The notes under the pieces were generated by a model. It was given only the letters and a program-made list of their open reading frames with translations. It was not told where the DNA came from and made no database searches. A stretch of DNA of 64,000 nt from a virus: positions 60,149-124,148 of the IMG/VR virus record IMGVR_UViG_3300043449_002510, one strand, 5' to 3'. Numbering within the stretch: position 1 is the stretch's first letter; each line of letters opens with the position of its first letter. Both the position numbers and the translations under genes were made by a program. This document shows, one piece after another, positions 52,658-60,421 of this stretch.

Positions 52658-54628
52658 ATGGAAAAAAAACACTTTGACGGTTTAGAAGAAATGGCGAATT
52701 TTACTTTTACTACTAAGTACGCCAAGTATGATGAAAAAAAGAAACGTAGAGAAACTTGGGACGAAACCGTCTCCCGAGTTGAAAAAATGCATTTAAAGAA
52801 ATTTAACTTTCTGTCTGAAAAAGACAAACAAGAAATTTCAAAAGCGTTTGATTTTGTGCGTAGTAAAAGAATTACGCCATCAATGCGCTCTATGCAGTTT
52901 GGCGGCAAGGCCGTTGAAGCCCACAATGGAAGAATTTTTAATTGTGCGGTAAGGCACGTTGATTCTCTGCGTTCTTTCGCTGAGTCTTTTTACACTCTTC
53001 TTTGTGGGACCGGGGTTGGATTTGGTTTGACTAACTTTTTTCTTAATAGACTTCCAGATTTTGTTAACGCAAATGATAAAACTGGGACTGTCATAACTTA
53101 TGTTGTTCAAGACAGTATAGAAGGATGGTCCGACTCTATTGAGGCATTGTTAAACTGCTACTTTAAAAACACGCCTTATTCTGGAAGAAAAATTGTTTTT
53201 GATTATAGCCGCATTCGTCCAAAAGGCGCAAAACTTAAGACTGGCGGAGGAAAAGCCCCCGGATACAAAGGCTTAAAGAATTGTCATAAAAAAGTAAAAA
53301 TGCTTTTAGATTCTCTTATCGAAGAGAAGAAACAAATTCGCTTAAAAACCATTGATGCTTACGATATCTTGATGCATTGCGCTGACGCAGTTCTTTCTGG
53401 TGGTATTCGCCGCAGTGCTTGTAGTGTTATTTTCGATGCCTCTGATGAAGATATGATGAACGCCAAGACTGGAAAATGGTTTGAAGAAAACCCGCAGAGA
53501 GCCAGAAGTAATAATTCTGCAATAATCATTAGAGATAAGACCTCTTATAAAGACTTTTGCAAACTGATTGAAAAAACCAAACAGTTTGGTGAACCAGGAT
53601 TCCTGTATGTCATTGACGAAAAACAACTCTTAAACCCCTGTTTTGAGATTTCATTTATTCCAATGACTTCTGATGGTCGTTGTGGATTTCAATTTTGTAA
53701 TTTAACTTCCATTAACGGAGCAAAAGTTACTTCCGTTGAAGAATTTAAGGAAGCTTCTTGGGCTGCTTCATTAATCGGAACACTTCAAGCTGCTTATACT
53801 ACTTTTCCATACCTTGGTCATACTTCTGAAGAGTTGACTAAAGAAGAAGCTCTTCTTGGGGTTTCTATTACTGGAATGATGGATAATCCAGACATTTTGT
53901 TTAATTCAAAATTTCAAAAAGAGGCTGCTAAAGTCGCTGTTGAAACCAATAAGGAATGGGCAAAAAAGATAGGTATTAATCAAGCTGCTCGCGTTACCTG
54001 CATTAAGCCAGAGGGAACAAATTCAATTGTCCTTTCTGCTGCTTCGGGGATTCACCCTCATCACGCAAGAAAATATTTTCGCAGAATTCAGGTAAACAAA
54101 GACGATAATGTTTATAAATATTTTAAAATGTTTAACGAACACGCTTGCGAAGAAAGTGTTTGGAGCGCAAATAAAGTTGATGACGTAATCACTTTTCCAA
54201 TAGAGATTTCTGAAAAAGCAAAAATTAAGTCTGATTTAAGTGCCATCGAACACCTTAAGTTAATTAAATTAACTCAAGAGAATTGGGTTAATTCTGGAAC
54301 AACAGACACAAATAAAAAGCCACTAAACCATAGTGTCAGCTGCACTGTTATCGTCAAAGACGAAGAGTGGGAAGAGGTTACTCAATTCTTGTTCAAAAAC
54401 CAAAAAGACTTCACTGCTGTTTCTTTGTTGCCGTTTTCCGGTGATAAAATTTATCAACAGGCGCCGATGGAAGCCGTTGTTACCCCAGAGGACGAAGAAA
54501 AGTTTAATAAACTCGTCCAAAATTGGACCAAGGTAGAGTATAAGAAGCTTGAAGAAGAAGATGATGCAACCAATCATTCTGCCGAAGTTGCTTGTGCTGG
54601 TGGAGCTTGTGAGGTTACAAAGGTATAA
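52658..54628 (+). CDS. nrdJ: Class II (adenosylcobalamin-dependent) ribonucleoside-triphosphate reductase
   Basis: A 656-residue monomeric B12-dependent reductase. SMRSMQFGGKAVEAHNGRIFNCAVRH and LLCGTGVGFGL are the class II N-terminal signature, NPCFEISF holds the catalytic Cys/Glu and CNLTSING follows. The C-terminal ACAGGACEV is the redox Cys pair (C-x4-C) that regenerates the site. No ATP-cone is present. It makes dNTPs from ribonucleotides with no oxygen or second subunit, but needs host cobalamin. TTGCAC, 19 bases, TATAAA lies upstream. GC content is slightly above the neighbours, perhaps from transfer. Confidence 0.92.
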   Translation: MEKKHFDGLEEMANFTFTTKYAKYDEKKKRRETWDETVSRVEKMHLKKFNFLSEKDKQEISKAFDFVRSKRITPSMRSMQFGGKAVEAHNGRIFNCAVRHVDSLRSFAESFYTLLCGTGVGFGLTNFFLNRLPDFVNANDKTGTVITYVVQDSIEGWSDSIEALLNCYFKNTPYSGRKIVFDYSRIRPKGAKLKTGGGKAPGYKGLKNCHKKVKMLLDSLIEEKKQIRLKTIDAYDILMHCADAVLSGGIRRSACSVIFDASDEDMMNAKTGKWFEENPQRARSNNSAIIIRDKTSYKDFCKLIEKTKQFGEPGFLYVIDEKQLLNPCFEISFIPMTSDGRCGFQFCNLTSINGAKVTSVEEFKEASWAASLIGTLQAAYTTFPYLGHTSEELTKEEALLGVSITGMMDNPDILFNSKFQKEAAKVAVETNKEWAKKIGINQAARVTCIKPEGTNSIVLSAASGIHPHHARKYFRRIQVNKDDNVYKYFKMFNEHACEESVWSANKVDDVITFPIEISEKAKIKSDLSAIEHLKLIKLTQENWVNSGTTDTNKKPLNHSVSCTVIVKDEEWEEVTQFLFKNQKDFTAVSLLPFSGDKIYQQAPMEAVVTPEDEEKFNKLVQNWTKVEYKKLEEEDDATNHSAEVACAGGACEVTKV

Positions 54629-54689: not shown

Positions 54690-55062
54690 GGGGGTGCAAA
54701 GAATCGATTTATGAATAATCGAAATGGATTGCACGTAGAGGATAACAGTTGGCCTCTTTAAAACTTCTGTTAAAAACAAATGCTAAAGCATTGAAATCGC
54801 TTGCCTTTAAGCCAGTTATGGCCCGCAAGGCGGCTGTTGTAGCCTAATTTATCAGGTTACCCGTTTGTCTTTTGATTCTCGCTAAAAAGAACAAACGCCA
54901 TTTGCGAGAAAAACGCGGGTAACAAATGCGCGTAATCAGGTGTTAAAAACTCAATAAAGATGGAGTGATGGTTCCTATTTATTGTTTTATTAATTCCATC
55001 TAAACATGTAGACGTTCTTTTGGTTAGCATAAAGACGCGGCTCGCTGCCGCCACCTCCACCA
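54690..55062 (+). ncRNA. ssrA: Transfer-messenger RNA (tmRNA)
   Basis: A 373-base RNA. The 5' GGGGGTG pairs with 3' CACCTCC (55052-55058) followed by A and CCA, giving a tRNA-Ala-like acceptor with the G3-U70 pair read by AlaRS. A D-loop-like GAATCGATTT follows. Pseudoknot 1 is clear: AGAGG 54737-54741 with CCTCT 54753-54757, and TAACAG 54743-54748 with CTGTTA 54767-54772. Nine bases later GCT at 54782 is the likely resume codon. The tag is 21 codons, starting AKALKSLAFK and ending ARKAAVVA, stop at 54845. The T arm has a 4-bp stem and CTCGCTG loop. It rescues stalled ribosomes with host SmpB. Confidence 0.9.
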
Positions 55063-55076
55063 GTTTAAATAAAAAT

Positions 55077-55361
55077 ATGAAAAAGAACCCCCGCAGAGAA
55101 CAAATGCTATCAGAAGCGGCTTTAATTTTTAGTTCTGTTTCCTTTTTTGAGGATGAAGTAAATAAAAAATTAGGCGAGCTTGACGAAGCAATTAATAATA
55201 ATTATATTGAAGACTTGCCTCAATTAGAAAAAGAGGTAGTCGCTTTAGTAAAAAAACTAAACGATGAAAATAAAGAAATTGATAATTTCATTATAAAATA
55301 CAAAAAGGAATTATCTAATGAAAAAAAAGCAATTTTACCTCGTTCTAAACAAAAAGAATAA
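55077..55361 (+). CDS. Small helical protein of unknown function
   Basis: A 94-residue protein from the ATG at 55077, which keeps it clear of the tmRNA end at 55062. It forms one long charged helix (SSVSFFEDEVNKKLGELDEAINNNY..., KKLNDENKEIDNFII), coiled-coil-like, with a basic tail. No family was recognised. It overlaps the next small gene by 44 bases. Confidence 0.6.
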   Translation: MKKNPRREQMLSEAALIFSSVSFFEDEVNKKLGELDEAINNNYIEDLPQLEKEVVALVKKLNDENKEIDNFIIKYKKELSNEKKAILPRSKQKE

Positions 55362-55965: not shown

Positions 55966-56484
55966 ATGACCGAAAAAGATTTTGTATTAAAAATTCCAGA
56001 AACATTAAATAAAACGAAAAACTTTTTAGCTTTTAAATTTAAATTGCATATTCATGACATAAATGATATCCTCCAAAATGCATCACTAAAAGCCTACAAA
56101 AATCTCCCTTTTTTTAGGGAAAAATGCTCTTTTGACACTTGGTTTATTTCGATTGCAAAAAACGAAGCAAAAACTTTTTTACTAAAAAGAAGCAAAACAA
56201 AAACAGTAGATGATTCGGAAGAGTTTTTAAAAGATTATTCGTTTAAATGGATAGAGCCAGAGGTAAATTCCAAAGAAGAACATGAAGACGTTTCTTTATT
56301 ATTGAATGAAATAATTTCAGATTTAAGTTCAAAACATAGAGTTGTTATTGATTTATTTCTAAAAGACCACTCCTCAAAAGAAATCTCTTCAATATTAAAC
56401 ATACCGATAAATTCTGTTAGAACAAGAATTTTCTACGCAAGAAAAAAGCTTAAAAATTTAATATTAACACATGGAAAACAATAA
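55966..56484 (+). CDS. ECF-type sigma factor
   Basis: A 172-residue protein. HDINDILQNASLKAYKNLPFFREKCSFDTWFISIAKNEAKTFL is a region 2 signature of ECF sigma factors (D-x2-Q...F...S..tWl..Ia.N). Region 4 is SKHRVVIDLFLKDHSSKEISSILNIPINSVRTRIFYARKKL, a typical helix-turn-helix. It would redirect host RNA polymerase to phage promoters. A TTGACT lies 35 bases before the ATG but no matching -10 was seen. Confidence 0.88.
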   Translation: MTEKDFVLKIPETLNKTKNFLAFKFKLHIHDINDILQNASLKAYKNLPFFREKCSFDTWFISIAKNEAKTFLLKRSKTKTVDDSEEFLKDYSFKWIEPEVNSKEEHEDVSLLLNEIISDLSSKHRVVIDLFLKDHSSKEISSILNIPINSVRTRIFYARKKLKNLILTHGKQ

Positions 56485-58427: not shown

Positions 58428-58640
58428 ATGCCATTACCAAAACCAAATAAAAAAGAAAAGGAACAAGAGTTTGTTTCTCGCTGTATGGAATCAGAAACCA
58501 TGAACAAAGAATTTCCAGACCAAAAACAAAGAGTAGCAGTTTGTTATTCACAATATAGAAAAAGAAAAGACACTGCAAAGGGTGGCGAAGAACCCAAGTG
58601 GGAAGATTGCGAAGGAGACAATACAATCACTTTACTTTAA
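58428..58640 (+). CDS. Small conserved phage protein (70 residues)
   Basis: A 70-residue protein. [20 protein letters not shown] and [21 protein letters not shown] form a pattern I recognise from many phage genomes, although its function is not settled. It starts 35 bases after a GTGTAT element and ends 2 bases before the pilin gene. Confidence 0.75.
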
Positions 58641-58642
58641 AG

Positions 58643-59329
58643 ATGTCAAAAAAGAATAAAGCATTCACATTAATAGAATTGTTGGTTGTTATAGCGATTA
58701 TAGCTATTTTAGCTGGGATGCTTTTACCAGCATTAAGTAAAGCAAAAGAAGCGGGTAAAAAAACTTATTGTTTAAACAACCTCAAACAATTAAGTTTGTC
58801 TGTAACAATGTATGCAGATGAACACGAATCCAAATATCCACCAAGAGGCGCTCCGGGCTCAAATTTAAACTTGTTGAGTAACACATGGCCAGCTACGCTC
58901 GGACCCTTTTACGAAAATAATAAAATACTTCTTTGTCCAAGTGATGTAACCGCCCCCTCAAACAATGGAAATAATAGCAATATCAGAAATTTAGAGGCTC
59001 CAAGAAGTTATATATTTAATGGGTTTAATGATTATTTCAAAGGAACTCCAGCTTTAGGCCAATCAATGCTTGAGACGGCAGTTCTTGAAACCAGTGATAC
59101 AATTTTATTTGGAGAAAAAGAGTCAGACTCTGGACATTGGTGGATGGATTGGTGGTTCGGAGATGATTACAAAGAATTAGATTTGAAAAGGCATAGTTTT
59201 GGGTCTAATTATGCTTTTGCGGATGGAAGCGCGAGATACGTCTCTTTTGGTAAAACATTTGCACCAATAAACATGTGGTTTGTTGATCCGATATACAGGA
59301 GTCAAGGAGAAAATCCAATTTTTCAATAA
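58643..59329 (+). CDS. Pseudopilin-like protein with H-x9-DG motif
   Basis: A 228-residue protein from the ATG at 58643. [26 protein letters not shown] is a type IV prepilin/pseudopilin leader, with the usual cleavage Gly replaced by Ala (A-F-T-L-I-E). It continues with the [15 protein letters not shown] pattern of DUF1559-type proteins and ends with H-x9-DG ([18 protein letters not shown]), typical of Verrucomicrobiota, Planctomycetota and Lentisphaerota. It probably needs a host prepilin peptidase. In a phage it is likely a moron of host origin, for example to alter pili. Confidence 0.88.
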
Positions 59330-59647: not shown

Positions 59648-60421
59648 TTATACCTTGTCTTCGGTTTCTTTTTTTCGTTCGGGATTGGCAGGAGAATCAT
59701 AAGGATATTCCTGTCCTTTGTTGACCACTATTTCATCATCATAAGTAGGGTCAACATTTCTGAGTTCTGGCATTGCTTTTAATATTTCTTCTTCAGAATA
59801 GAAGGTGAAGCCATCCCAATCTTCATTAGGGTCAATCAACACTGGTTTTTCGTAATAATAATCAGAAAGTTGATTTAAACTATGAGTAGCTTCTTCTTCG
59901 CTAGCCATTGCTTCGGGAGAAGATTTTTTAGTTTCAAAAAAATGATAAACTTGCTCAATATTTGTTTTTGCCTCTGCTATATGATCGGCAGCCCAATCGT
60001 GACCATCAGAAATAATAGCGTCAACTGATTTTTCGTTCATAGCTAATAAATCATCAACAGCACTTTTAATTGTTTTTAAATTAGCAAAGAACATGTAGTT
60101 TTGGGTTTCTTCGCTTGAACGGCTGGTTAACTTGCTAACTGGCTTTGCGCTCCACATTTTGCAGCTCCAATAACGAGCTTTCCACTTTGGACCAGGATTA
60201 TCGCATCCATGTCTGGCACGAAAATTTTTTCTGCGCTCTGGGTCATCGCGTTTTATTTCCATGTTGGGGTCGCCAAAAGTTACTTTAACAACATTTCCTT
60301 TGTCATTTTTGACATAAACAGCGAATTTTTTAGGTCCACCCGGTGTCCTAAACGGTTTATTTAATGTTTTTTTCTCTTTTGTAGCTGCAATAGCGTTAGA
60401 GATATCAACTTCGTGTTTCAT
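59648..60421 (-). CDS. Protein with DUF5872-like N-terminal domain
   Basis: A 257-residue protein. KPFRTPGGPKKFAVYVK followed by RDDPERRKNFRARHGC and KARYWSCKMW is a conserved stretch that I associate with DUF5872 and phage capsid-assembly proteins; the exact name is from memory. The C-terminal half is acidic and helical. It could be a scaffold or core protein. Shares an operon with the gene at 60426. Confidence 0.65.
   Translation of the reverse strand: MKHEVDISNAIAATKEKKTLNKPFRTPGGPKKFAVYVKNDKGNVVKVTFGDPNMEIKRDDPERRKNFRARHGCDNPGPKWKARYWSCKMWSAKPVSKLTSRSSEETQNYMFFANLKTIKSAVDDLLAMNEKSVDAIISDGHDWAADHIAEAKTNIEQVYHFFETKKSSPEAMASEEEATHSLNQLSDYYYEKPVLIDPNEDWDGFTFYSEEEILKAMPELRNVDPTYDDEIVVNKGQEYPYDSPANPERKKETEDKV

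Follow-up and report, generated by a model that had tools for sequence, protein, structure and literature searches.

We identified a tmRNA gene (ssrA, 54690–55062, + strand) in the window, the 64,000-nucleotide stretch of virus DNA analysed here (positions 60149–124148 of a 124,148-base IMG/VR virus record), and its sequence features and relatives confirmed it as a genuine phage-encoded tmRNA. The molecule probably functions in rescuing ribosomes during infection of a host that uses long tags of its own, with the appended tag serving as a degron whose front half would be bound by a host factor; we assign this reading a probability of about 0.75.

Architecture and genomic setting of the tmRNA gene

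The gene was matched by the Rfam model RF00023 over the entire model (positions 1–374 of 374) at 84.6 bits (E = 2.2e-31; the gathering score is 47 bits), and it is the sole tmRNA in the record. Within pseudoknot 1 (PK1), stem 1 is AGAGG/CCTCT (54737–54741/54753–54757) and stem 2 is TAACAG/CTGTTA (54743–54748/54767–54772), the latter with Watson-Crick pairs at six out of six positions, and the 21-codon tag AKALKSLAFKPVMARKAAVVA arises from the model's resume-codon frame alone. The sequence-only reading had described complete tmRNA ends, a G3-U70 acceptor, pseudoknot 1 and a resume codon opening a 21-codon tag on a phage genome. These elements are all present (full-length RF00023 match, GGGGGTG/CACCTCC, encoded CCA and both PK1 stems; Table 1); the covariance model accepts the structure and places the resume codon in the reported frame, which also agrees with the translation and with the equivalent frame that ARAGORN calls in two relatives, L003 and L008. 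The phage origin likewise held up, since a terminase and other phage genes lie on the same contig.

Table 1 Features of the tmRNA gene and its surroundings (positions in the window)
Feature	Position	Strand	Basis
B12-dependent (class II) ribonucleotide reductase, conserved upstream neighbour	52658..54628	+	Pfam PF21995, PF02867; synteny
tmRNA gene (ssrA), 373 nt	54690..55062	+	Rfam RF00023 full-length; syntenic homologues
Acceptor stem 5' strand GGGGGTG with G3 (G3-U70 alanine identity pair)	54690..54696	+	sequence; stem covaries in nine tmRNAs
Pseudoknot 1	54737..54772	+	stem 2 pairing kept in nine sequences despite sequence change
Tag frame: resume codon GCT (54782-54784), 21 codons AKALKSLAFKPVMARKAAVVA, stop TAA (54845-54847)	54782..54847	+	translation; covariance-model placement; constraint on codons 1-9
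Helix 3' of tag, CGTTTGTCTTT/AAAGAACAAACG, at the PK2 place of the Rfam model	54862..54897	+	11 covarying pairs, RNAalifold consensus
T-arm GCGGC-TCGCT-GCCGC: 5-bp stem, 5-nt non-canonical loop	55037..55051	+	stem covaries; loop shortened stepwise across relatives
Acceptor stem 3' strand CACCTCC, discriminator A, encoded CCA	55052..55062	+	sequence
Conserved downstream ORF, function unassigned	55077..55361	+	same place in L003, L005, L006, L008, L010, L027; 35-50% identity
Phage sigma-70-like factor, conserved downstream neighbour	55966..56484	+	Pfam PF08281, PF04542; synteny
tRNA-Ala(UGC), G3-U70, CCA, at contig end	63926..64000	+	Rfam RF00005, 40.4 bits

ARAGORN made no call for the window tmRNA. 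Its T-loop (TCGCT) has 5 nt in place of the usual 7-nt TTCRANN, two bases fewer than in L003, and its D-loop (AGAATCGA) is without GG, so that both the canonical TTCRA T-loop and the D-loop GG, which are usual consensus features that the Rfam model does not demand, are absent. The shortened T-loop probably explains the ARAGORN miss. Upstream of the gene, no promoter signal was found above chance.

The contig carries matches to the terminase large subunit, tail-fibre and virion-structural proteins, replication genes (DNA polymerase III alpha, DnaB helicase, primase and a UvsX-like recombinase) and sigma factors, and the tmRNA sits among these phage genes, with synteny conserved across phages, and not at a host integration junction. 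It starts 61 bases after the end of the upstream reductase gene (nrdJ), through which we reached 48 related IMG/VR loci. A tmRNA was found downstream of the reductase in six of them (L003, L005, L006, L008, L010 and L027; those of L005 and L006 are identical), in the recurring order reductase, tmRNA, 55077 ORF, 55645 ORF, sigma factor and 56471 ORF (L005 ends after the sigma factor), and flanking proteins at these syntenic loci share only 28–54% identity. A tmRNA lies elsewhere in two larger relatives, whose contigs measure 193 kb and 354 kb, and a further phage contig with a tmRNA, L148, has ORFs that by eye resemble PhoH and tail-fibre genes. Gain and loss of the tmRNA evidently occur, because no tmRNA was detected in L007 and L009, which are close by reductase. 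The reductase genes of L008, L009, L027, L030, L017, L045 and L050 are split by insertions of roughly at least 0.9 kb, some of which read like inteins; the window reductase is without them. SmpB (PF01668) was found in none of 13 phage records, some of them possibly fragments, while control genomes were positive. No isolated phage with similar tmRNA DNA was found in the phage collection, and the new records that a tag-motif pattern retrieved from IMG/VR (L066, L068, L070 and L072) were all without an Rfam match.

Selection on the RNA and on its tag

An alignment of nine phage tmRNAs showed compensatory change at 32 of 45 consensus pairs. Between the window and its nearest relative, L005, 10 of 40 pairs differ; in 7 of these both partners changed and still pair, and 1 is broken, in the window. 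PK1 stem 2 retains 5–6 of its 6 pairs in all nine molecules while its sequence varies, and the T-stem stays paired across the phage tmRNAs through compensatory changes. The loop that it closes differs in length: 7 nt and canonical in L003, L008, L148 and L058, 6 nt in L027, L010 and L057, and 5 nt in L005 (TCGAT) and the window, both of which have also lost the D-loop GG. Because base-pair changes are compensated and PK1 stem 2 keeps its pairing, decay is excluded as the main reading, and the sequence evidence indicates that the window tmRNA is a complete one-piece molecule maintained by selection.

Constraint also appears to reach the encoded peptide. The tags of the relatives are ANALKSLAFVPVVGREVAAVA (L003 and L008), ANALKSLAFKPVMAFEAAAVRA (L005 and L006), ANAIKSLAFVACMSFDRQEVMA (L027), AKSALKSLVSKSFLKLAPQAELAVA (L010), ANNDISEMLGEISANPDAVLAEFASENVLV (L057), ANRLSQLAAMDEVDLSVDCEELAIA (L058) and AKNVIAYDFIPVEEEVLVVA (L148). 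Over codons 1–9, L003 and L027 differ by 10 base changes and a single amino-acid change (leucine to isoleucine), the serine codon being TCG in one of them and AGT in the second, and 20,000 random placements yielded no case that was equally conservative; for the window against L027 the same codons gave p = 6e-4. Codons 10–21 showed no comparable constraint against L027 (p = 0.66 for L003 and 0.31 for the window), although some is seen in the close pairs window/L005 and L005/L003 (p about 0.01–0.02), and the back half is thus not wholly free. With few sequences and changes placed by simple random placement, this test gives good but not final evidence of amino-acid-level constraint on the tag front A[NK]A[LI]KSLAF between phages. 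The usual tag pattern is a C-terminal ALAA ending. Here the C-termini are VVA in the window, AVA, VRA and VMA in relatives and VLV in L057, which suggests that the C-terminal half drifts while codons 1–9 are kept, unlike the usual conservation of the tail.

Tag length, tRNA elbows and candidate hosts

A survey of bacterial tmRNA tags with RF00023 and ARAGORN gave sampled lengths of 8–32 residues in Patescibacteria (median 21), 14–24 in Cyanobacteriota, 8–13 in Planctomycetota and 9–10 in Bacteroidota. The 21-residue tag had been taken for non-standard on the rule that most bacterial tags have about 8–15 residues; that rule suits Planctomycetota and Bacteroidota and fails in Patescibacteria and Cyanobacteriota, where such lengths are ordinary, and a phage-specific tag length was rejected on the same grounds, equal lengths occurring in two bacterial phyla. 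The supposed rarity of phage tmRNAs did not hold as stated, in that tmRNAs are not very rare in IMG/VR, but many of those counted there may come from prophages or from hosts. The tag motif itself had no bacterial counterpart in our searches: neither KSL nor SLAF occurs in any tag of the surveyed bacterial sets, and 84,980 GTDB species genomes yielded 38 stretches with the motif, of which the 33 checked by ARAGORN held no tmRNA.

The host of the window phage probably uses long tags and may be Patescibacteria-like or Cyanobacteria-like. A Patescibacteria host is favoured by tag length, by the -VA ends, by a tree in which 8 of 9 phage tmRNAs fall among those of Patescibacteria (weakly supported and made from short conserved parts, it serves as a hint only) and by a relaxed T-loop position 55, with G55 present in 8 of 26 Patescibacteria tmRNAs, 0 of 60 from other sets and 0 of 30 from Cyanobacteriota. 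Against it stand the phage terminase, which had no match in 379 Patescibacteria genomes (an empty result being weak evidence), the reductase, whose Patescibacteria matches do not exceed 38% identity, and a borderline OmpA-like match, at 20.9 bits just under the cut-off of 21, that, if real, would suggest an outer membrane. A Cyanobacteriota host is possible; the nearest isolate reductase, that of Microcystis phage Mel-JY01, has an identity of just 41%, and its surroundings carry no annotated tmRNA. At 58598–59329 the window also encodes a prepilin-type N-terminal motif and an SBP_bac_10/DUF1559 protein. Such proteins are typical of Planctomycetota and relatives and odd in a phage, which makes this one a possible host hint; Planctomycetota are nevertheless disfavoured, their tags being short.

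The relatives' tRNA arrays lie about 10–13 kb downstream of the tmRNA, in the same place as the window tRNA-Ala, and since the contig stops exactly at the CCA of this tRNA, the record was probably cut inside such an array. Some phage tRNAs of the group swap the near-universal G18-U55 elbow pair for A18-G55. Across the tRNAs of the phage group and of wider reductase relatives (L075–L101 among them), U55 goes with G18G19 in 30 cases and G55 with A18G19 in 18 (one of these after manual reassignment), and one molecule departs from the rule; the count excludes molecules that have C55 or whose D-loop is unclear. The link between positions 18 and 55 has p = 1.6e-12, a value that ignores relatedness and is therefore overstated. 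The A18-G55 pattern recurs across isoacceptors, and the window tRNA-Ala is of this type; the window tmRNA is without the swap. The G18-Psi55 pair has been said to involve a universally conserved residue (PMC4810234), and our literature search found no report of an A18-G55 swap. Among Patescibacteria tmRNAs, A18 accompanies G55 in 7 of 8 and GG accompanies U55 in 18 of 18 (p = 2e-6, again overstated as relatedness is ignored). Position 55 seems to be relaxed in Patescibacteria. Three of their genomes (G144, G165 and G142) have C55 in the T-loop of 10 of 46 tRNAs, and the parsed Bacteroidota tRNAs were canonical in 8 of 8.

Proposed function and comparison with known systems

In the favoured reading, the G3-U70 pair would allow the host AlaRS to charge the phage tmRNA with alanine, and host SmpB would carry it to stalled ribosomes; because no SmpB was found in the 13 phage records, the host protein would have to serve the phage tmRNA. 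The RNA would then free ribosomes on broken mRNAs during infection, and the product would gain alanine plus the 21-residue tag with its selected front half. In a host with long tags of its own this tag would probably be a degron, and an adaptor, an unfoldase or another host factor would bind its front half. Since our searches turned up no bacterial tmRNA that shares the motif, the case for a degron is one of analogy. The window tag ends in VVA rather than LAA or ALAA, and such VA-type ends resemble LVA, which together with AAV is a known SsrA degron variant in E. coli (PMC9382460). Earlier, the tag had been thought to point to altered ribosome rescue or to a changed protease route; the structure does argue that the tmRNA works in rescue, the length of 21 residues does not count as an abnormality, and altered protease routing of tagged products is possible but unsupported.

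The tag might instead not be mainly a degron, its front half (ANALKSLAF) directing products to a phage or host partner or shielding them from a host protease. Such a role would agree with three observations: the constraint lies in the front half, whereas tags usually end in ALAA; the ends vary, with VLV in L057; and no bacterial tmRNA found has the motif. We consider it unlikely, since recognition of a tag's front by an adaptor, E. coli SspB being an example, itself belongs to degradation (PMC9382460), and VA-type ends are like those of LVA degron variants and of many tags sampled from Patescibacteria. It is similarly doubtful that the tag serves two purposes, A[NK]A[LI]KSLAF steering rescued proteins to a particular partner from phage or host and the C-terminal degron varying with the host; if true, the phage would have taken control of what becomes of rescued proteins, beyond ribosome rescue.

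The non-canonical T-loop and the D-loop without GG could weaken the tRNA-like fold, and an eroded elbow of the tRNA-like domain would suit an inhibitory decoy that titrates host SmpB or blocks trans-translation, a role suggested for the molecule of mycobacteriophage DS6A that consists of a tRNA-like domain (TLD) only; PMC4131195 gives an inhibitory precedent for TLD-only molecules. This is very unlikely here, as the mRNA-like domain, PK1, the resume codon and the in-frame tag and stop are present and constrained, and a decoy needs none of them. Scarcely credible is a degenerating pseudogene, or a host ssrA brought in by contamination or integration, which would fit the ARAGORN rejection and the lost loop consensus but not the 7 of 10 changed pairs that are compensated against the nearest relative, the embedding among phage genes syntenic in several phages, or the lack of a second tmRNA in the record.

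Retained in several phage lineages, the tmRNA and its tag front make phage control of rescued-protein fate testable with a defined peptide, and the eroded elbow means that ARAGORN-based surveys can undercount phage tmRNAs. We found no earlier description of a phage tmRNA family with evidence for selection on the tag itself; the literature search on phage and Patescibacteria tmRNA returned PMC4131195 and PMC7162821, and nothing on these tags.

Compared with the one-piece bacterial tmRNA of RF00023, the window molecule shares the G3-U70 acceptor, encoded CCA, PK1, a GCN resume codon, the tag with its stop and the downstream helices, and differs in its 5-nt T-loop, its D-loop without GG and a tag conserved in the front half. 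The tmRNAs of mycobacteriophages (Bxz1 group, Wildcat) and Bacillus phage G are likewise complete or near-complete ssrA genes on phage genomes (PMC4131195, whose 2014 census counted ten phages with ssrA), but they belong to another phage lineage and gene context, and the window has no DNA similarity to the phage collection. The huge phages of Al-Shayeb et al. 2020 (PMC7162821) are likewise large and uncultivated, with a tmRNA and tRNA arrays; SmpB was described there as well, whereas none was found in the window group, and their tmRNAs were called with ARAGORN, which misses that of the window. Cyanobacteriota tmRNAs have tags of 14–24 residues, some ending in VAVA, yet their T-loop is canonical in 30 of 30 and their motifs are others (ANNIVxFxR and NLFALPS among them). 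Virus contigs of IMG/VR (L157, L161, L202, L207, L208, L212 and others) hold many permuted tmRNAs of the two-piece type whose long tags contain ANNIVAFSR or a close variant; these resemble the sampled Cyanobacteriota ANNIVxFxR and could be cyanophage copies of host-like tags. Patescibacteria (CPR) tmRNAs share with the window long tags, often with -VA or -LA ends, and relaxed T-loops, but no sampled tag has the KSLAF motif. Phage tmRNAs themselves are thus already known, and what is new is the combination of a lineage-specific, front-conserved tag with an eroded elbow.
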